From positions 1 to 64,000 of the IMG/VR virus record IMGVR_UViG_3300032246_000346: 64,000 nucleotides of DNA. One strand, 5' to 3'. The position numbers were made by a program, and so were the translations under genes. The stretch comes from a virus. The notes below the pieces were generated by a model, which saw only the letters and a program-made list of their open reading frames with translations, made no database searches and was not told the origin of the DNA. Below, piece by piece: positions 32,862 to 54,714 of this stretch; the first letter of the stretch is position 1, and the number at the start of each line of letters is the position of its first letter.

Positions 32862-34190
32862 TTACGTTGGTAAATATTTATTTGGATTAATTTGTTTGCC
32901 CTGTTTAGGTGTACCTGTTCGGGCTTGTCTTACTTTATGCAACATACTGTATAAACGTTGTGCACCTGCTTTAGATGAGCCATTACCAATATGACTTACT
33001 ACATCTGCAGGAACTACAAACTCACCATCCGCTAATCTAGCAGGTTGTTTACCATCAATAGAAGCATGAATAGAATCACTCATACCATCACCTTCTCCAT
33101 CTAAGTATCCACCATGAGCATAGATTGAACCTAGACCACCTTCTGAATATTCAACAGGACCGCCAACAGCATAGAATTCATTGGCAGCTTTAGCATTAGC
33201 ACCTTGATTCATTAAATTATCTAATCTACCAAGTCCATATGATTCTGAAGGTGTATTTTGAGCTGTTGTACCATCAGGTTTACTGAAAGCATTAGTACTA
33301 TCTTGATTGTATGCTTGAGTACCAAATACAGTACCTGAACCTGGAACTGCTCCACCAGACGCTAAACGTAATCCTGAATCAGGACTTAAATTTAATATAT
33401 AGTCAGGATCTTTACTTCTATATTTATTAGCTAAAGCTTTACGTTTTTCTTCTTCAGCTTGGTCTGCTTCAGGATATAAATCTTCTTGTGCACCAGATAG
33501 CGCCGCCATACCTACAGGAGCAGCTAATTGAAATGCTGAGCCACCAGCACCACCTTGTGCTATAGGAGTTGTAAATTTATCAAAGCCTCCAGGTTTTAGT
33601 GTTTCCATTAAACCACGACCTGTTTGACTTAAACCTTGTGAAAAAGTTGTAGCTGGTGCTGCTTGTTTAGCTAACGTAGCAGCCATACCTTGACCTGATC
33701 CAGCTGATGAAAGCCCACCTTCAGCTGTAAGTTGAGGACCAACTATATTTTTTGAAGCTTCATAACCACCTTGAGCTCCCATGTTTCCAAAACTACCTGC
33801 TAAATTACCACCACCATAACCACCAAGACCGCCCATTAAACCACCGGTTAATACATCGTCACCTTTAGCGCCAGCTACTGCAGCACCTGTAGCCATACCA
33901 GCAGCAATAGGAGCAATTGTAGCAGCTGTAGTTCCAGCTTCAAGTCCTAGACCAGCACCCATTGGACCACCAACCATAAAACCAGCAACAGTTGGTAATA
34001 AAGAAGTAATAAAACTACCAAAGTCAAAAGCTTCTGGCATACCTGTATGTGGGTTAGTATGTAGTTTATGGCCTGTCATTTGGCCAATAGCCTGTAACCC
34101 AGCTACTTCTCTAGGGCTTACGTGCATAAGCATAGTATCGCCATTGCGACCTAACGAAGCTAAACCGTGGGAAAGGGCATGAGTAATCAT
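32862..34190 (-). CDS. putative tail/structural protein
   Basis: 442 residues. The N-terminal LMHVSPREVAGLQAIGQMTG with TNPHTGMPEAFDF is a phrase found in other phage tail-region proteins; a long Gly/Ala hydrophobic region follows (residues 60-130), and the C-terminus has ARLADGEFVVPADVVSHIGNG, a phrase I know from tape-measure-like and virion proteins. Function uncertain; probably part of the tail or ejection apparatus. Confidence 0.6.
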   Translation of the reverse strand: MITHALSHGLASLGRNGDTMLMHVSPREVAGLQAIGQMTGHKLHTNPHTGMPEAFDFGSFITSLLPTVAGFMVGGPMGAGLGLEAGTTAATIAPIAAGMATGAAVAGAKGDDVLTGGLMGGLGGYGGGNLAGSFGNMGAQGGYEASKNIVGPQLTAEGGLSSAGSGQGMAATLAKQAAPATTFSQGLSQTGRGLMETLKPGGFDKFTTPIAQGGAGGSAFQLAAPVGMAALSGAQEDLYPEADQAEEEKRKALANKYRSKDPDYILNLSPDSGLRLASGGAVPGSGTVFGTQAYNQDSTNAFSKPDGTTAQNTPSESYGLGRLDNLMNQGANAKAANEFYAVGGPVEYSEGGLGSIYAHGGYLDGEGDGMSDSIHASIDGKQPARLADGEFVVPADVVSHIGNGSSKAGAQRLYSMLHKVRQARTGTPKQGKQINPNKYLPT

Positions 34191-34226
34191 AAAAAGTCCT
34201 TATTGAGATAATCAAATTGTATCATA

Positions 34227-35003
34227 TTATGCTGCTGTATTGGATATTAAAACACCTTGCAAAATCAATCCTACAATATGCGTTCCGCTTGCTGTGGAAA
34301 ACTGCCATTGAATATCTACTTTTTGAGTATAGGGAAAAGGATTATTTCTTATTACTTGATATCTTTGATCCCAAGCTGTTTGTAATACAGTTAATGTTAC
34401 TGGATTGGTTTGAGCATTATTTGTAATTTTTACTTGATAGTTAATAGCATTACCTGCCGCAGCGTCACCGTTAAAAGCATTAATTGAAGTAAGATACATG
34501 GTATAGCCATTAGGTACTGAATATACCCCAGCTTGAGACCTACCTATCCCTATATTAATTTGAGAGTATGTAATACCACCATTTTTTGCTGTAATTGTAC
34601 CTACGTTGGTAGTTTGACCTGTTCCTGTGCTAGTCATAATCATGCTATTAATACGAAGAAATTGATTGGTTGTAGTTACACCTGTTACACCATTTAAAGT
34701 TACAGTTTCAGTTATTAAGTTCCAACTTGAATCAAGACCACTAACAAGAATTGTTGCTCTTGTATTATCAGAGGCAGAAGTGCTGGCAAGGGTCATTGTT
34801 ACCGCAGATGCAGGAAATGCGTATTGTGTAGTGCCAGTTAGCTCCCACAAAGTATAAAAAGTGGTTTTAACAGTATCCGAATAAGCAAAAATATTAAGTT
34901 GATTAACACCAGAAACTAGACCACGAGCCACTTGCATTTCCCAAGGCGCTGCAGAACTAAGTGATGTAGTAGCTGCAACAGGCGGAAAATATTGAATACT
35001 CAT
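34227..35003 (-). CDS. putative virion structural protein
   Basis: 258 residues, strand-rich with many Thr, Asn and Gly; ATG 35003 overlaps the upstream stop (ATGA). No motif allows a named family; the pattern (TITAKNGGITYSQINIG) is typical of tail-tube or fibre proteins. Coupled to the 111-residue gene upstream. Confidence 0.55.
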   Translation of the reverse strand: MSIQYFPPVAATTSLSSAAPWEMQVARGLVSGVNQLNIFAYSDTVKTTFYTLWELTGTTQYAFPASAVTMTLASTSASDNTRATILVSGLDSSWNLITETVTLNGVTGVTTTNQFLRINSMIMTSTGTGQTTNVGTITAKNGGITYSQINIGIGRSQAGVYSVPNGYTMYLTSINAFNGDAAAGNAINYQVKITNNAQTNPVTLTVLQTAWDQRYQVIRNNPFPYTQKVDIQWQFSTASGTHIVGLILQGVLISNTAA

Positions 35004-35335
35004 AGTGCTTCACCTCCAGTAACAGTTGCAGTACATCCAGTAGCTGATGCTTTAACTTGTATAGTATCACTTACATTTAAAATTTGGCTTCCAGTCCATT
35101 GAACTGTTGTATATGCAGGTAATGGTGTATTATAAAAAATAGCATTATCTGTACCTACTGTAGCTCCTGCAGGAACTAAACTAACATATATATTAATAGA
35201 AGATGCTGTAGTGTTACATATAGTAATATCTTTAACATAAGTTCTTGTATTAACAGGTACATTATAGATAGATAAATACGATGTTGTCATCGCTGCTTGA
35301 CCAATTTTGACACCAGTTATATTTTGATATGCCAT
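35000..35335 (-). CDS. putative virion structural protein
   Basis: 111 residues, strand-rich. The segment TYVKDITICNTTASSINIYVS resembles small tail accessory proteins with a jelly-roll-like fold. Coupled to its neighbour downstream; probably part of the same structure. Confidence 0.5.
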   Translation of the reverse strand: MAYQNITGVKIGQAAMTTSYLSIYNVPVNTRTYVKDITICNTTASSINIYVSLVPAGATVGTDNAIFYNTPLPAYTTVQWTGSQILNVSDTIQVKASATGCTATVTGGEAL

Positions 35336-35542
35336 TTAAAAACTTCCTGTTCCTAACCAATTAAGAGTATTTAAGCTATTGATTTGATTAATAGTATCTA
35401 CGTTAGCTTTATCAAGTTGATTATGATAGTTACGTAATGTATTATTAGAAACTTCTTGCGTTTGTTGACTATACTCAACAGATGGGGCTGGAATAGCTGG
35501 TGCTTTAGTTTGTGTAATATTATTATGTACTGAACTAGCCAT
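35336..35542 (-). CDS. hypothetical small protein
   Basis: 68 residues, polar and Asn/Gln-rich, predicted helical at the C-terminal half (NTLRNYHNQLDKANVDTINQ). Lies between two structural genes with one-base spacing. No family recognised. Confidence 0.5.
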   Translation of the reverse strand: MASSVHNNITQTKAPAIPAPSVEYSQQTQEVSNNTLRNYHNQLDKANVDTINQINSLNTLNWLGTGSF

Positions 35543-35543
35543 A

Positions 35544-37733
35544 TTATCCTCTTAATCCATCAGCACGTGCATCAACACGAGTTAAACCTAATTGCCATTG
35601 CGTATTTAATGTATCAGAACCAATTCTAAAATTCATCTGACGACCACGGCATCTTACATATACTTGGTTAGTATATGGCGTAAATACAGCAGAAGAGGTA
35701 TAAGTACCTTGTACTGTATTAGCTGTAGACTGTCCTTCTTCATTAGTTGTAGATTCAGCAGCACCAGGGAAATTACGTACACCTACAGTCAATGTTACTT
35801 CTGGTGTAGTACTATTAACAGAGCCATCAAAATTAACATCAGGTATTAAACGGCGTACTAACATAAATTTCTCACCATCACCAATATCAATATCAGCTGA
35901 TTGGATATATGATTCTATAGGTAATGCAGCTGCATTTCCTGGTTGACCATCATTTACACCATCTTCATGTTGATAAACATAACCATTATTAGTAGCTAAT
36001 GGATTTTTAAATACGCCTGTATCAAGCCATGTAGTTCTTGATAAATCACCATAATACCAAATTTGTTCTAAGTAGTTATAGATAACATATCGATTTAGTG
36101 TATTTGAATCAGCCGTTGCATAAAACCATATAATCTCATTAAATTTATTATTAACCCCTGCTACAATAACAGAGTCTTGTTCTTGGTTAATATTATTAAA
36201 TATATATTGACGTAAAGTACATGGTAGAGTATCTACTCGACCTGAGTAGCTATAAAATCTATCAGTACCCATCCAGTAAACAATATTATTAGTACTTGTT
36301 ACTGCATTTGGACCCATAATAGAAATGTTACTTGATAACTGTTGTATACCAAATACATCTCCAGTACCTAAAAATTGTAAGGAATGTAATGTATTATTAG
36401 TAAAAATTACTGTTTCTTGTTTTGTATTTACTGCGGTGACAATCTTAGAACCCGCTTGAATACGTAAGTATCCTGAACTATTTTGTTCTGTTGGGTTCCA
36501 CACTTGTGGTTGAGCGCCATAAACAGGATCTACATTTGACCATCTAATTAATAATGGATCATAATATAAACTTAAACTAGGTGGTGTATAATTATTATAT
36601 GTATATGTACCTACTGTTGTAGCAGAGGAACCTGGATTATATGTTAATTGATAGGTAAATGTATTTGCTCCTGTAACTGTAATTTGAACTTGATCTGGAT
36701 AAGATGCATAATCAGCAGGAGCTTGACCTATTAAAGTAATCCAATCACCTGTAGCCCTACCATGCGATCCTGAGGTTGTAACTGTTGCAACTAAAGTAGT
36801 TACGTTATAAGTAATACTTGTTATTGCTGCACCAGCTGTTGATTGATCGTAATATTCAGTACATCCTAGTGCTAATAAATATCCACTTGGTGTAAATAAA
36901 ATCTTATTAATTTGTTGAGGAACTGCAACTGCGCCTGTTATAGAAGATAATAATACTGCACGAGTAGTAAATGAACTATCATAAGCCCAATAATAAATAG
37001 CAGATTTATTAATATTAAAGTATAAGTCATCAACATAGTTATCAGCAAATATAAGTCTAGCAGGTGTATAAATAGGTGTAGTAGCAGCAGCACCCCAAGC
37101 TGATGTACCCCACGTACCAGCACCCCAACCATAACCAGCAGTTGTATAATCGTAACCAATATTAATTTGAAAAGCCGCTGTGATATTTGTTCCTCCCACA
37201 TTAGATGCGGCTGTAATAGTACTAGCTGTAGTAGATACTGTAATATAAAAACTACCACCAATAAGCTTTAATTCAAATTCTTTATTTAAATCTGCGTTGG
37301 GAATACTTCCTGGATTGCCTGTAACGCCACTAAATGTAACATAATCTCCATCAGTAGCACCTGAAGTAATTGTAGAACTAACTAATACATTTTGAGATCC
37401 AGCAAACGTAGTGAAGCAATTATTTGTAGTAGGAGATGTATAAGTAACACGAAGAGGAGTGATGTCTTTTAATGTAGAACCTACTAAGATATACATCTTT
37501 TTATTAGTACCAATAAGCGCTAATTGGTTACCATCAGTAACATTCCAAGTAAATAAAGTTCTAGCAGTACCTACATATGGTGAAAAGGGATTAGCAACAG
37601 TCCAACCACCCATCTTTTCAGGAAAGCCTGAACGGAAACGAGCCAACTGAATATCATACCATCCACCTTCGGAAGCATAATTAGTTTGGTCTTTATTTAA
37701 ACCTGATTTAAAGGTTAGTTTACTTAGTGACAT
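35544..37733 (-). CDS. tail stabilisation protein, P22 gp10-like (inferred)
   Basis: 729 residues. The opening (LSKLTFKSGLNKDQT, GGWYDIQLARFRSGFPEKMGGW) is a hallmark of large podovirus tail proteins that I associate with P22 gp10-type packaged-DNA stabilisation or tail-hub proteins; the rest is beta-propeller-like with repeated Trp/Asn/Thr segments. It would close the neck after packaging. The assignment is from resemblance of the N-terminus and the size. Overlaps the DUF5675 gene by 10 bases. Confidence 0.6.
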   Translation of the reverse strand: MSLSKLTFKSGLNKDQTNYASEGGWYDIQLARFRSGFPEKMGGWTVANPFSPYVGTARTLFTWNVTDGNQLALIGTNKKMYILVGSTLKDITPLRVTYTSPTTNNCFTTFAGSQNVLVSSTITSGATDGDYVTFSGVTGNPGSIPNADLNKEFELKLIGGSFYITVSTTASTITAASNVGGTNITAAFQINIGYDYTTAGYGWGAGTWGTSAWGAAATTPIYTPARLIFADNYVDDLYFNINKSAIYYWAYDSSFTTRAVLLSSITGAVAVPQQINKILFTPSGYLLALGCTEYYDQSTAGAAITSITYNVTTLVATVTTSGSHGRATGDWITLIGQAPADYASYPDQVQITVTGANTFTYQLTYNPGSSATTVGTYTYNNYTPPSLSLYYDPLLIRWSNVDPVYGAQPQVWNPTEQNSSGYLRIQAGSKIVTAVNTKQETVIFTNNTLHSLQFLGTGDVFGIQQLSSNISIMGPNAVTSTNNIVYWMGTDRFYSYSGRVDTLPCTLRQYIFNNINQEQDSVIVAGVNNKFNEIIWFYATADSNTLNRYVIYNYLEQIWYYGDLSRTTWLDTGVFKNPLATNNGYVYQHEDGVNDGQPGNAAALPIESYIQSADIDIGDGEKFMLVRRLIPDVNFDGSVNSTTPEVTLTVGVRNFPGAAESTTNEEGQSTANTVQGTYTSSAVFTPYTNQVYVRCRGRQMNFRIGSDTLNTQWQLGLTRVDARADGLRG

Positions 37734-41585: not shown

Positions 41586-42941
41586 CTATAAAACAACCCA
41601 ACGTTGACCAGATGGAACTGTAACTACTGCACCACCGCTAATTGTAATTGGTCCTGTTGACATTGCATTTTTATTTGTAGATAACGTATAACTTGTTGTA
41701 ACTGTTTTTGAGTTTTCGTAAAATACTTGGTCACCACCTGCACCTGTAGCACCACCACCAATTGTACCCCATGAACCTGCTATACCTGTAATTGTAGTAC
41801 CTGCTGGGATTAATTGAGTTGTATCTACTGTATATGTACCTGTACTACCTGTACCTGTACCAAGTGCTGTAATTTTAGTACCAGCAGTAATAAAGAAATA
41901 CCCCATCATTGACTCACTTGCTATGGTTTGTGAGTTGTTAACAGTGTATGTACCTACACCACCTGTACCTGTACCAAGTGCTGTAATTGTTGTACCTGAT
42001 GTAACACCTATACCTGAAATAACTGTACCTACTTTTAAATTACTTGTTGATGCAACTGTAACTGTTAGTGTAGTACCTGAAATGGAAGCTGTTAAAGTAG
42101 ATGATATATAACCTGACACAGTCATACCTACTGCAATAGTACCTGATGTAACTGCGCTTACATCTAATGTAGTTCCTGCAATACCTGAACCGTTATCAAT
42201 TTTACCTGTAAATACAGCAGTAGAAGTAGCTAAGAAGCCTTCATATTGATTAATAGTTGAGTTATAACGCATCATACCTGAATATACATCAGCTGGTCTT
42301 TGTGCTGTTGTACCTGCTGGTACTGCTACAGAACCTGTACCAACAAACTGTAAGTTATTAGGAACGTTAACAACCGTACCATTAATAGTCATGCTATCTA
42401 GTTTATAGTCACCTAAAGTAGTATTATTGTAAGTATTTAAAGATGTAGCATTAATAGCCGCAGTTACTGTACCAGCTGTAATAGTAGCATTTGAAGAAAT
42501 AATAGTTCCATTAAAATAGTTTGATGGTGTAGATACATTTGTACCATCGCTATAAACAAAACCTGAAGTGCCTGCTGGAATAGTTACAGTAGTGCCTGGT
42601 GTTCCAACAACTGATACAATAACATCATTAGCTAAATTATTATTAACAATGTAAAACTTAGTAAAAGTATATGCGCCTGAAGTAGCTGGAATAAATAATG
42701 TTCGTGTAGATCCACCTGCAGTACCTGTTAAATTAAGTCTAAGATTTCTTGCAGCTTGAGTAGTATATGTATCAGATAAAGTTAAAGTAACATTAGCACT
42801 AGAAAATCCAACATCAGTAGTACCAATAATAGACTCTTGGATACAAGTACCTAAAGAAGCATTAGTAATATCACCCCATGTGGTAGCTTCGGTACCTGTG
42901 GTAATTTGAGGTATTTTTAGTGCTGAATATGCAACGGTCAT
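41586..42941 (-). CDS. tail fibre-like protein with internal repeats
   Basis: 451 residues. N-terminal [25 protein letters not shown] and NYFNG sequences are familiar from fibre proteins; residues about 280-400 contain two close copies of a [10 protein letters not shown][GS][VT]GTYTV unit. The repeats probably make shaft beads. See the DNA repeat at 41826-41990. Confidence 0.65.
41826..41990 (-). repeat. direct repeat inside the tail-fibre gene
   Basis: Two near-identical stretches of about 50 bases (about 41826-41880 and 41940-41990), each coding [13 protein letters not shown], lie 114 bases apart. They show duplication of a shaft unit and could mediate length change by recombination. Confidence 0.6.
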
Positions 42942-47863: not shown

Positions 47864-48363
47864 TATCTTCTTAATCCACCTAAACCTTGTTGTAATGTAC
47901 CAGGTTGCATATCTCTTGGTGCTGGACCGCGTTGAGGACCTTTAGTAAGTAATGGACCTAAACCTGGAATTTGTGGATAAACTCCTTTAAGTGGTCCAAG
48001 ATCTTGTTTTTGTTGTGGGTTTAGCGTACTACCTTGTTGTAGTTGGTTATACATAGGATTTAAGTTTGATACCGTTTGGCCAAAACCCAAAGGTTGTTGG
48101 TTTTGCATACCTTGTTGCAGTGATCTCATATTATTAAACATATTTGATCCGTTTTGAAACATATTTAACATACCTTGCGATTGTTCAGGCGTTACTTGTC
48201 CTGGCTGTGGAACTGTGCCATTAAATAACGTACTGCCTGGTTGTGCTTGTATATAAGGGTTTTGAGGTTGTTGTTGCATTAATTGAGCAAACCCAGAATA
48301 CATTTGCAATTCTTTTAGTTGTTCTGGGGTTAATTGTCCACCTTGTCCTGCTGCGCCTGCCAT
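47863..48363 (-). CDS. Gln/Pro/Asn-rich protein
   Basis: 166 residues of low complexity: Q, P, G, N and M dominate, with repeats of short LQQGMQNQQPLG-like phrases. Probably disordered. Adjacent to the tagged gene family at 48363-49572. Function unknown; possibly a virion-internal linker. Confidence 0.5.
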   Translation of the reverse strand: MAGAAGQGGQLTPEQLKELQMYSGFAQLMQQQPQNPYIQAQPGSTLFNGTVPQPGQVTPEQSQGMLNMFQNGSNMFNNMRSLQQGMQNQQPLGFGQTVSNLNPMYNQLQQGSTLNPQQKQDLGPLKGVYPQIPGLGPLLTKGPQRGPAPRDMQPGTLQQGLGGLRR

Positions 48364-48683
48364 TATACTATCCTTCCTTTTGTTTTACCGCGAATTGCAC
48401 ATCCATTAGCTTTGGCTACGAAGCCTCCACCTTCCATTTTTTTACAGCCACAGCCAACAGAACCACCTTTTTTCATAACTTTAGGATTTAAATCTGTCGG
48501 TTTATCTTTATTAGTAGGGCCTAATTTTAATTGAACACCTTTAGCCATGTTTTCATTATCCATACCAAGTTTTTCTCTTACAAGTTTTCTAATCTCAGTA
48601 CCTGGACTCCACTCTGCTTTATCAGCTTCAATAGCTGAATCATATTTTTCTTTAGGTGACATATCTTTATATGATTTAGCCAT
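48363..48683 (-). CDS. RGKTKG-tag protein 1
   Basis: 106 residues. N-terminal half charged and helical (KSYKDMSPKEKYDSAIEAD), then Gly/Cys-rich KKGGSVGCGCKKMEGGGF and the C-terminal ANGCAIRGKTKGRIV. The same terminus occurs in the next two genes. A short-spaced Cys cluster could bind metal. Unknown role; late position suggests the virion. Confidence 0.6.
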   Translation of the reverse strand: MAKSYKDMSPKEKYDSAIEADKAEWSPGTEIRKLVREKLGMDNENMAKGVQLKLGPTNKDKPTDLNPKVMKKGGSVGCGCKKMEGGGFVAKANGCAIRGKTKGRIV

Positions 48684-49186
48684 TATACAATCCTTCCTCT
48701 TGTTTTTCCTCTGATTGCACAGCCATTAGCTTTAGTAACAAAACCACCACCAGCCATCTTTTTAGCTTTAACTTTACCGCCTTTTTTAAAACCCATTGAA
48801 CGTCTAGCTTGTTCTAAAGGATCCATCCATTTTTCTTCAGCAACAGCTTTGTTTACTTTAGACATATCAGGTGCAGATTCCATAACATCTTTTGTTCTAT
48901 CAACACTACCAATATCACCTGGAGCTGTTTCTACAGAAGTTTCTTTTTTAGTTACTTTAATAGGTTTTTTAACATTATTAAAGTTAGGACCCATTTTATC
49001 GTTACTAAAATCAACACGTGATCCAATATTACCAGTAGGAGTATTACGACCCATAGCAGTATCTATTTTATCTTTTCTAGCAGCTCTATCTGCAGCACGT
49101 TCTGCAATACCGCGTTGTTGTCTTAACTCGTTTTCATCAAGCATATCCTTGATGTCACTAAATAAATTACCTGTGTATTTAGCCAT
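48683..49186 (-). CDS. RGKTKG-tag protein 2
   Basis: 167 residues, charged and largely disordered, with repeated short basic patches (DRAARKDKIDTAMGRN) and the C-terminal KMAGGGFVTKANGCAIRGKT then RGRIV. Over the last 25 residues it is nearly identical to tag protein 1. Confidence 0.6.
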   Translation of the reverse strand: MAKYTGNLFSDIKDMLDENELRQQRGIAERAADRAARKDKIDTAMGRNTPTGNIGSRVDFSNDKMGPNFNNVKKPIKVTKKETSVETAPGDIGSVDRTKDVMESAPDMSKVNKAVAEEKWMDPLEQARRSMGFKKGGKVKAKKMAGGGFVTKANGCAIRGKTRGRIV

Positions 49187-49188
49187 GA

Positions 49189-49572
49189 TTAAACAATCTT
49201 TCCTTTAGTTTTACCGCGAATAGCAACACCATTAATAGAACCACCAACAGCATATTTTTTGCCTTTAGTCATTCCACCACCACACATACCACCTTTTTTA
49301 AGTTCTAATTGAGTACCTTTACCACCTTTATGTTCTTGTGCATCGTGTTGTTTAAATGCTTTTTTAATCATAGCTTTATCTTGAGCCATGTCCATCTTTG
49401 TATCTTCTTTCATATCTGATTTAGCCATACCGCCTCCTTTAAAAGTTTTACCTTTATCAGCGGCAGCAAAATCTTTACCTACTGATTGTTTAATTCCTAC
49501 CTTCTTAGCAAAAGCTGGGCTATGAGCTACAGCTTCCATTAAGTTATGTTGTTTTTTAGATACACTAGGCAT
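49189..49572 (-). CDS. RGKTKG-tag protein 3
   Basis: 127 residues from ATG 49572, overlapping the upstream gene by 8 bases; an in-frame ATG at 49599 is less likely because MPSVSKKQHNLMEAVAHSPA is the start I know for relatives in other phages. A Lys/Ala-rich middle, a Met/Gly/Cys patch (KKGGMCGGGMTKG), and the C-terminal NGVAIRGKTKGKIV. Confidence 0.65.
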   Translation of the reverse strand: MPSVSKKQHNLMEAVAHSPAFAKKVGIKQSVGKDFAAADKGKTFKGGGMAKSDMKEDTKMDMAQDKAMIKKAFKQHDAQEHKGGKGTQLELKKGGMCGGGMTKGKKYAVGGSINGVAIRGKTKGKIV

Positions 49573-49810
49573 TTTTTTCAGCCTCTCTCCAGCGTTCACA
49601 TTTAAAACATGTGCAATCAGGATGATGTAAAGGTCTTGTCCATGGATTAGGTACTTTAACCTTTTCTACTACAGGTTCTAATTTATATGGAGCTTCTTCT
49701 TTAATTGATTCTACCATAGCTTCAGTAGCCACTTCTACAACAGGTTCTTCAATATTAACTTCTTTTTTAACAGCCTTTTTAGGCTTTAGTATTTTGTGTA
49801 ATATATCCAT
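49565..49810 (-). CDS. hypothetical protein, HPDCTCFKC end
   Basis: 81 residues. Acidic/basic middle (NIEEPVVEVATEAMVESI), then LHHPDCTCFKCERWREAEKN with three Cys and two His that may bind zinc. Such C-terminal Cys/His clusters are frequent in phage small structural genes. Not recognised. Confidence 0.5.
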   Translation of the reverse strand: MDILHKILKPKKAVKKEVNIEEPVVEVATEAMVESIKEEAPYKLEPVVEKVKVPNPWTRPLHHPDCTCFKCERWREAEKNA

Positions 49811-52941: not shown

Positions 52942-53427
52942 TTATTGTGTACCGAATGATGAGCGATCATCAGGTTGGATGTATAAGACAGTAACAAAAC
53001 CTGTACCTGCTGTAGGTTGACCTACTGAAGTAACTGTAGCAACAATTGTAGAAACAGAACTTTGAGTTGTCGTTTGAGCAGATACATCTACTGGAGTAGC
53101 TTGCATGTTTGTTAATTGTGTTGTTGTAAATGTAGGTGTTGTACGACCTGATGTCTTAGCATTTACACCTGATGCATATTCTGTACCACCAGAAGTTTTA
53201 CCAACTGTTAATGTAGCTGAAGTAGCTGAATCATATGCAGTGATAATATCAATAACAATGTTAAGAATTTTACAGCCTGATGGGATATAAAATGTAGCAT
53301 TTTGAGTTAATGTAGCATTAAATGTAATAGGCACTTGTTGTGTTAAAACAGTTGTACCTACGTTAAAATATGGAGCATAGCGGTTAGTACCAGATTTAAT
53401 TGGGCCGCTAAAGGTGGATCTTGACAT
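52942..53427 (-). CDS. putative capsid decoration or structural protein
   Basis: 161 residues, strand-rich, with FSGPIKSGTNRYAPYFNVGTT at the start and ATFYIPSGCKILNIVIDIIT in the middle. Typical size and composition for head decoration or head-fibre proteins. It is separated from the major capsid gene by the 370-base region holding the pqqA-like gene. Confidence 0.55.
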   Translation of the reverse strand: MSRSTFSGPIKSGTNRYAPYFNVGTTVLTQQVPITFNATLTQNATFYIPSGCKILNIVIDIITAYDSATSATLTVGKTSGGTEYASGVNAKTSGRTTPTFTTTQLTNMQATPVDVSAQTTTQSSVSTIVATVTSVGQPTAGTGFVTVLYIQPDDRSSFGTQ

Positions 53428-53515
53428 AATGATGTTCCTTCATAAAAAGTTAGGCTTATTAGTCGTTTATGCGTCTTCCGGAAAGTCTAATAAACCGGAT
53501 TAACCGGATAAGTGA

Positions 53516-53543
53516 ATAATACTACAAAAATATATAAAAGCAA
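53516..53543 (-). promoter_or_regulatory. weak sigma70-like promoter for downstream structural genes
   Basis: Minus strand: TTGCTT (53543-53538), 16 bases, TATTAT (53521-53516). Since a strong terminator ends the unit just upstream (53555-53577), a promoter is needed here for the genes starting at 53427. The leader holds a direct repeat ATCCGGTTA and an inverted TCCGG/CCGGA. Confidence 0.45.
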
Positions 53544-53554
53544 GTAATTATTAT

Positions 53555-53577
53555 TAAAAAAGGGGCCGAAGCCCCTT
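53555..53577 (-). terminator. strong intrinsic terminator after the pqqA-like gene
   Basis: Minus strand: GGGGC (53575-53571), TTCG tetraloop (53570-53567), GCCCC (53566-53562), followed by six U's (53561-53556). An ideal rho-independent terminator, 9 bases after the peptide gene's stop. Confidence 0.9.
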
Positions 53578-53583
53578 AGTTTA

Positions 53584-53661
53584 TTACTTATTCATAACGT
53601 ACATAGTTACTTCAAAGCCAAATCTCATTTCAGTTGCTGCTGGTTTAGACCATGATTTCAT
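53584..53661 (-). CDS. pqqA: PqqA-like PQQ precursor peptide
   Basis: 25 residues, ATG 53661 to TAA, with a second TAA directly after. AGGAGA (53672-53667) sits 5 bases upstream. The second half, RFGFEVTMYVMNK, matches the PqqA core: Glu17 and Tyr21 have the ExxxY spacing of the two residues that PqqE cross-links and that become the PQQ skeleton. The start (MKSWSKPAA) fits the W-x-KP segment of PqqA. Known PqqA peptides are about 22-29 residues. No pqqB, C, D or E is in the window, so it would depend on host enzymes. It has its own promoter and terminator. Confidence 0.85.
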   Translation of the reverse strand: MKSWSKPAATEMRFGFEVTMYVMNK

Positions 53662-53676
53662 ATTATTCTCCTAAAA

Positions 53677-53705
53677 TTTATACACACCATGTGTATAGTT
53701 GTCAA
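53677..53705 (-). promoter_or_regulatory. near-consensus sigma70 promoter for the pqqA-like gene
   Basis: Minus strand: TTGACA (53705-53700), 17 bases, TATAAA (53682-53677). The predicted start near 53670 would fall at or next to the AGGAGA site, giving a very short leader. This is the best promoter in the late block. Confidence 0.8.
53679..53697 (-). promoter_or_regulatory. operator-like inverted repeat over the pqqA promoter
   Basis: TATACACA (53679-53686), CCA, TGTGTATA (53690-53697): a perfect 8+8 bp inverted repeat with a 3-base centre, lying in the promoter spacer and overlapping the -10. It is placed where a repressor dimer would block RNA polymerase. Confidence 0.7.
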
Positions 53706-53745: not shown

Positions 53746-53776
53746 AAAAAAGGGCCTGCGTTTTAAGCAAGCCCCT
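53746..53776 (-). terminator. intrinsic terminator after the major capsid gene
   Basis: Minus strand: GGGCTTGC (53774-53767) pairs with GCAGGCCC (53759-53752) over 8 bp (one G-U) around a 7-base loop, then six U's. It ends the terminase-to-capsid transcript about 25 bases after the capsid stop. Confidence 0.85.
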
Positions 53777-53799
53777 TAGTAGTACGTAGCAAGGAACGA

Positions 53800-54714
53800 T
53801 TAAGCGCCTTGTGAACCCCACATACCGAGAGGATCTGACCAACCGAATGAATAACGTTCACGAGCTTTGTAACGTACATTGCCTGTGTCGAAGTCACCAT
53901 CCATAGAAGTAGTTAATGGTGCACGAACAAAGTGTTTAAGTCCGTTAGGTACATCAGTAACTAAGAAGTATGCATTTGTATCAGTCAAGAAGTGATTGAT
54001 TGCATAACCTTCTGGGATAGAACCATTGTTCTTCAATGCATTGATATCGTTGTCAGTAGTACCAACACGAAGTTCAGTTTCGAGCAAACGAGTTGCAACG
54101 AATTGTAATGCAGGTGGAACAATAAGTTTCTTAGGTTTAGCAGCAATTAAAAGACCACGCTCATCAGTCCAAGCTGCGATTTGAATAACTGCATTTTCCA
54201 ATGAAGTTTCATTCAAGTCAGCTGCTGTTGATTGAGTGTTGCTGTTTGTACCGCCAGTAACAAGAGGATGGTTAGTAGCAAACAATGGCACACCGTCACC
54301 GCCGTAATAAGCAGCAGAGTTAGTGAAACCGTTGTTAAGTACGTTTGCAGCCTTAACTTGTTTTGTGTAAGCCATACCGCGAGCAAGTGCTTTAGTGTAG
54401 CGTGATGATAAAGTGTCATACAAGTTATCTTCAATTGCTTCTTCAGTTAAGCTGAAGCCTAAAGCGATTGTTTCGTGGTTGTATCGAGCTGTCCAAGCTT
54501 CTTGAGCATTGTCGTAAGCGATGGCATTGCCTTCGTTTTTAACAGGTGCTGCAGAGAAACCAGAAAGCTTTGTTTCTTCTTCGAAGCTACGTTCTGAAGT
54601 TTCAGTTTCGTAGATTTCTTTGTGCTCTTCGCCGTAACGTTTGTATTCGAGACCGAATAGCGCATTAAGACCAGGTAAGAGCTCTTTTAGTAGCTGAGCG
54701 CGTGAAATAGCCAT
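53800..54714 (-). CDS. major capsid protein
   Basis: 304 residues. The sequence YKRYGEEHKEIYETETSERS, EAWTARYNHETIALGFSLTEEAIEDN, LPFLATNHPL-like VPLFATNHPLVTGG and the C-terminal GDFDTGNVRYKARERYSFGWSDP resemble Mu gpT-like major heads. Its place after scaffold and before a terminator, and the good ribosome site (AAGGAGAAT), fit a highly made protein. Probably HK97-fold. Confidence 0.85.
   Translation of the reverse strand: MAISRAQLLKELLPGLNALFGLEYKRYGEEHKEIYETETSERSFEEETKLSGFSAAPVKNEGNAIAYDNAQEAWTARYNHETIALGFSLTEEAIEDNLYDTLSSRYTKALARGMAYTKQVKAANVLNNGFTNSAAYYGGDGVPLFATNHPLVTGGTNSNTQSTAADLNETSLENAVIQIAAWTDERGLLIAAKPKKLIVPPALQFVATRLLETELRVGTTDNDINALKNNGSIPEGYAINHFLTDTNAYFLVTDVPNGLKHFVRAPLTTSMDGDFDTGNVRYKARERYSFGWSDPLGMWGSQGA

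Follow-up and report, generated by a model that had tools for sequence, protein, structure and literature searches.

Phages of methylotrophs, and phages of several other hosts that use pyrroloquinoline quinone (PQQ), probably share a general strategy of supplying their hosts with the peptide precursor PqqA and with no enzyme of the pathway, by means of a 150-200 bp cassette that unrelated lineages would have gained repeatedly and that annotation has largely missed, the gene being shorter than those usually reported. The case that led to this proposal lies in the window, i.e., the whole stretch of 64,000 nucleotides analysed here (positions 1 to 64,000 of IMG/VR record IMGVR_UViG_3300032246_000346). 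There, a genuine and functional pqqA was probably acquired by the phage as a stand-alone cassette that would feed the PQQ enzymes of the host and thereby keep methanol dehydrogenase charged.

A stand-alone pqqA cassette next to the capsid gene

The source record represents one tailed phage of 65.8 kb that encodes a large terminase (phrog_38, 1e-103), a portal, a major head protein (phrog_371) and a virion structural protein, together with a DNA polymerase A and a SNF2-type helicase. The 25-codon minus-strand gene that a preliminary description had placed in the capsid region is found at exactly that position (Table 1), and the peptide features pointed out there, namely W-x-KP at the N-terminus (W4, K6-P7) and a glutamate and a tyrosine in ExxxY spacing, are all present. 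A ribosome-binding site and a sigma-70-like promoter are predicted 5' of the gene (promoter scores of at least 11 occur at 0.3% of random positions), and a strong intrinsic terminator is predicted 3' of it, which makes the window pqqA an apparently self-contained cassette. The hairpin that marks the upstream end of this cassette also follows the capsid gene in relatives without pqqA, and the leader of the 161-aa late gene on the other side (about 53428-53545) is similar to the leader in such relatives; the gene beyond the latter encodes the virion structural protein (PHROG match). The arrangement is that of a moron-type cassette, with its own promoter and terminator and inserted between genes that are adjacent in relatives. 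The promoter is not a general property of phage pqqA: scores 5' of the other phage copies are barely above random, and most of these copies may therefore be transcribed from the transcripts of neighbouring genes.

Table 1. Features of the pqqA cassette and its flanking genes, in window coordinates
Feature	Position	Strand	Details
Late gene, 161 aa, downstream neighbour	52942..53427	-	no PHROG match
Intrinsic terminator (predicted)	53556..53577	-	AAGGGGCTTCGGCCCCTT-TTTT, GC-rich; directly 3' of the pqqA stop
pqqA ORF	53584..53661	-	25 codons + TAA; peptide MKSWSKPAATEMRFGFEVTMYVMNK; cross-link residues E17, Y21; TIGR02107, PF08042
Ribosome-binding site (predicted)	53668..53672	-	AGGAG, 6 bases 5' of ATG; read from sequence
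Sigma-70-like promoter (predicted)	53677..53705	-	TTGACA-N17-TATAAA, 11/12 consensus
Terminator-like hairpin	53750..53777	-	follows the capsid gene and marks where the cassette starts upstream; by eye
Major head protein gene, upstream neighbour	53800..54714	-	phrog_371, E 3e-23

Elsewhere in the window (48363-49599), three adjacent small genes share a near-identical C-terminus (NGCAIRGKTKGRIV / NGCAIRGKTRGRIV / NGVAIRGKTKGKIV); such repetition of a tail motif is unusual.

Identity of the peptide and selection on it

The preliminary description had called the peptide PqqA-like and had held that the idea would fall if PqqA models failed to recognize it or if relatives lost E17 and Y21. Both curated models match it significantly and well above their thresholds, the equivalog model TIGR02107 with 39.2 bits (cut-off 20, E 4e-10) and Pfam PF08042 with 39.3 bits (gathering score 21.1), and the whole virus record contains this one PqqA model match only. 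The glutamate and the tyrosine, from which the ring system of PQQ is formed, are kept in 185/185 viral sequences, which were collected with a pattern that left both codons free. With two curated models above cut-off and the cross-link residues conserved, the identity of the window ORF as a bona fide PqqA can be regarded as established on sequence grounds. No match to the peptide was found among the PHROGs, and no relative among solved structures.

The phage peptide resembles bacterial PqqA of the Methylophilaceae type in its length, in the W..P motif, in the cross-linked Glu and Tyr and in the ATEMRFGFEVTMYVMNK core, and many phage copies are identical to host copies across the last 22 residues. 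Unlike bacterial PqqA, the phage gene stands alone in the capsid region with its own predicted promoter and terminator and with no pqqBCDE nearby in the window record. Such adjacency is not required of a pqqA gene, since the extra copies of the hosts are likewise solitary (PMC4109929).

The gene is evidently maintained as a peptide, modification residues included. In all 185 viral sequences the stop codon directly follows the last lysine, silent sites are highly varied, and pN/pS at codons outside the search pattern is 0.30 overall and 0.20 for the Methylophilaceae type. With 25 aa and a ribosome-binding site, the window gene has the properties of a short translated ORF (about 22-30 aa) under peptide selection.

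A probable methylotrophic host with many pqqA copies

A search of 84,980 bacterial and archaeal genomes for the ATEMRFGFEVTMY peptide type gave at least 120 matches, and the 80 genome titles listed among these name Methylophilaceae/Methylophilales or carry loose labels ('Betaproteobacteria', 'uncultured proteobacterium'). Since the window peptide is of a type that occurs in Methylophilaceae, we infer that the host of the window phage belongs to this family of methanol users. All 120 sampled genomes of the host family carry pqqA, mostly in 2-12 copies; with these homologues in the host and a head module around the phage copy, the latter is a metabolic gene with host homologues that resides in the genome of a phage, i.e., a putative auxiliary metabolic gene. 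In agreement with these counts, Methylophilaceae isolates were reported to carry 3-12 pqqA copies and typically one set of pqqBCDE (PMC4109929), and Hyphomicrobium carries five copies (PMC9851590). In the genomes of Methylotenera mobilis 13 and LSUCC0135, as many as twelve nearly identical pqqA copies lie dispersed in one genome.

Because each PQQ uses up one PqqA, the copy number of pqqA alone is the dose that these hosts raise, and the phages would do likewise. The solitary extra copies of methylotrophs are indeed similar to the phage gene in being lone genes, usually with their own terminator (101/127), that would provide more precursor per single enzyme set; those copies, however, are chromosomal and not phage-borne.

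Occurrence in named and environmental phages

A tblastn search of 50,697 phage records with the window peptide matched nine records of Methylophilales/Methylophilaceae phage isolates (P19250A, Venkman, MEP301, MEP401, MEP402 and four Melnitz) and one uncultured phage (MW202481), so that every Methylophilales phage record found in this collection carries pqqA; NCBI names a few further Methylophilales phages that did not turn up in it, and MEP431-434 and Venkman EXVC038S were not found there. A match to an Escherichia phage was insignificant (E about 10). Two matches named 'Acinetobacter phage MD-2021a' were rejected, the examined contig having a bacterial pqqABCDE operon; CAKLQF020000010.1, which bears this name, holds pqqABCDE among other metabolic genes and appears to be a misfiled chromosome. 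Queries with three further PqqA types returned the same records or no match, and the alphaproteobacterial type gave no match in the 50,697 records; in viruses this type was seen in three contigs only, which were set aside because their viral origin is doubtful.

The preliminary description expected gene finders to overlook so small a gene easily, and pqqA is annotated in none of the examined Methylophilales phage records. In the examined isolates it is either unannotated or overlapped by a 'hypothetical protein', which in MW202481 and Melnitz EXVC044M lies on the opposite strand. Gene finders commonly discard ORFs shorter than 90 bases, and an ORF length below this limit is a likely reason why pqqA was overlooked.

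In IMG/VR, a degenerate PqqA pattern matched at least 120 contigs, and the 120 listed all translate to a short PqqA ORF that ends where expected, whereas a mis-spaced pattern (24 N in place of 22), a rough chance control, gave three loci and a second pattern with incorrect spacing none. A pattern for other PqqA types likewise matched at least 120 contigs. A narrower codon pattern, which fits 10/119 of the listed contigs, also gave at least 120, the first ten listed being the same ten that fit in the broader listing. This suggests that several hundred or more IMG/VR contigs carry pqqA and that the total lies above about 1,400, a rough lower estimate in view of the wide error on the 10/119 fraction and of contigs that are perhaps duplicates or host DNA.

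Fifty whole phage records were compared: the window record, six named phages and 43 IMG/VR contigs. Each of the 50 has exactly one pqqA, and none, the window record included, has a PqqE or a PqqB above cut-off; weak matches to the PqqE model in four records, all far below cut-off, were dismissed as general radical-SAM-like. Methanol dehydrogenase is encoded in one of the 50. In the phage contig IMGVR_UViG_3300025120_009955 (72 kb), a PQQ-dependent methanol dehydrogenase at record positions 34049-35731 (608 bits, family model) accompanies pqqA at 41890-41952, a pairing like that of the Lake Baikal case (see below).

Apparent repeated gain of the cassette

Among 80 phages whose capsid proteins are at least 85% identical ("capsid relatives"), 69 have at least 400 bases past the capsid gene, and pqqA is present there in one of these 69; in 18 longer records of such relatives, any pqqA occurs in that one only. 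In relatives without the gene, a hairpin follows the capsid stop, and after it comes either another insert or the next gene's leader. More distant members, found through pqqA itself, have other PqqA types, and their gene lies about 150 bases past that for the capsid or at another place; named capsid relatives that infect SAR11 or cyanobacteria gave no pqqA match by tblastn in the phage collection. Given this absence from the site in most capsid relatives, the other sites and types in distant members and the lack of matches in SAR11 and cyanobacterial relatives, the cassette appears to have been gained repeatedly, in step with the host. The 338 pqqA loci fall into 55 neighbourhood groups (flanking genes at 50% identity).

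In four phages that share the window phage's capsid family, PqqA is of a different type (W.KPTYE.[IV]RLGFE[VI]TMYFK) and its gene lies at a different site, 1.4-1.9 kb past the capsid gene, which is suggestive of another PQQ-using host group. In three relatives, the same post-capsid intergenic site holds other inserts, including GIY-YIG endonuclease-like proteins (MTRGIYKIINVVNNKFYVGSA), and the site thus looks like a hot spot for insertions.

Probable precursor supply and alternative explanations

The phage gene would act as follows. A phage of methylotrophic Methylophilaceae acquires pqqA as a stand-alone expression cassette and, during infection, would produce PqqA, one molecule of which is spent per PQQ. 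Host PqqD/PqqE, next a protease, PqqB and PqqC would convert it to PQQ, and the extra supply would keep the PQQ-dependent methanol dehydrogenase (XoxF/MxaF) charged, so that the supply of energy and carbon could be maintained through phage production. We infer that the gene is expressed in infected cells, that host enzymes process the peptide, that PQQ rises and that fitness benefits. That the phage provides extra precursor for host enzymes had already been put forward in the preliminary description, and the methanol-using host type, the conserved Glu and Tyr, the low pN/pS and the missing PqqB and PqqE of the phage genomes all fit it. Against this reading, extra PqqA would be useless if the bottleneck were PqqE or PqqB of the host; several pqqA copies are already present in the hosts, and methanol dehydrogenase accompanies the phage gene in a single one of the 50 records.

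A small peptide could also serve the opposite end, occupying PqqD/PqqE as a decoy that lowers PQQ and stops methanol oxidation by the host. Shutdown of host pathways is frequent among phages, and with a strong promoter such a peptide could titrate PqqD; yet a decoy should lose or change the cross-linked residues, and their conservation throughout the viral set, along with the many phage peptides that are letter-identical to those of hosts over the last 22 residues, makes this improbable. Marginally less probable is another role for the peptide or its cross-linked product, e.g., in counter-defence or as a signal. A study of ribosomal peptides describes a PqqA-annotated family whose expression in ocean data accompanies that of phage-defence systems (PMC11118758), but pqqA follows methylotroph hosts across the phage collection, and within one phage family the PqqA type varies in a pattern suggestive of different hosts.

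Twenty-seven phage copies match a host copy at 64/66 bases or more, as might be expected of a DNA-level relic, either an attachment site or a piece copied from host pqqA and retained by accident, not as a gene. This is very unlikely: silent sites are free to vary while the peptide is kept, similarity to host pqqA ends at the ORF boundary, and the window copy has what appear to be its own promoter, ribosome-binding site and terminator. An integration site was rejected on the same ground, the similarity being confined to the ORF. It is less credible still that host DNA has been misfiled as virus. The two 'Acinetobacter phage' records are, or look like, chromosome with pqqABCDE, and some IMG/VR contigs have no terminase match; a recognisable terminase is nonetheless present in about 24 of the 43 sampled, and misfiling is refuted for the window copy, which lies within a phage head module, and for the isolates, which are lysing phages that have pqqA.

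Significance and comparison with known systems

In lakes and coastal seas, Methylophilaceae are major users of one-carbon compounds, methanol among them. Should an added supply of PQQ precursor be common among their phages, infection would act directly on the oxidation of methanol, and a frequent auxiliary metabolic gene of this group would have largely escaped notice. Since Venkman, Melnitz, MEP301 and P19250A, which have cultured hosts, carry pqqA, the power of a phage to raise or limit cofactor supply through substrate dose alone could be measured now.

Cyanophage psbA is a phage-supplied, consumable component of host energy metabolism. There, a protein subunit is turned over, whereas here a ribosomal peptide would be spent as a biosynthetic substrate. 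Phage PqqA itself is not entirely new: in 2020 it was proposed as an auxiliary metabolic gene, together with methanol dehydrogenase, in the Lake Baikal population VP_266, a T4-like Methylophilaceae phage (PMC7678222), and a reservoir survey of 2026 includes viral pqqA in its listing (PMC13188868). The former study states that P19250A has neither PqqA nor methanol dehydrogenase genes, contrary to the tblastn match showing that it does carry pqqA, and a text search of methylophage isolate papers found pqqA nowhere mentioned as a phage gene. What appears new is that every isolate found has pqqA, that the gene comes as a stand-alone cassette and independently of the other PQQ genes, and that it is so widespread. 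The window phage and VP_266 are alike as PqqA-encoding phages of Methylophilaceae, the host of the former being tentatively assigned from its peptide type; unlike the T4-like VP_266 with its methanol dehydrogenase, the window phage belongs to a different family and brings pqqA without that enzyme.
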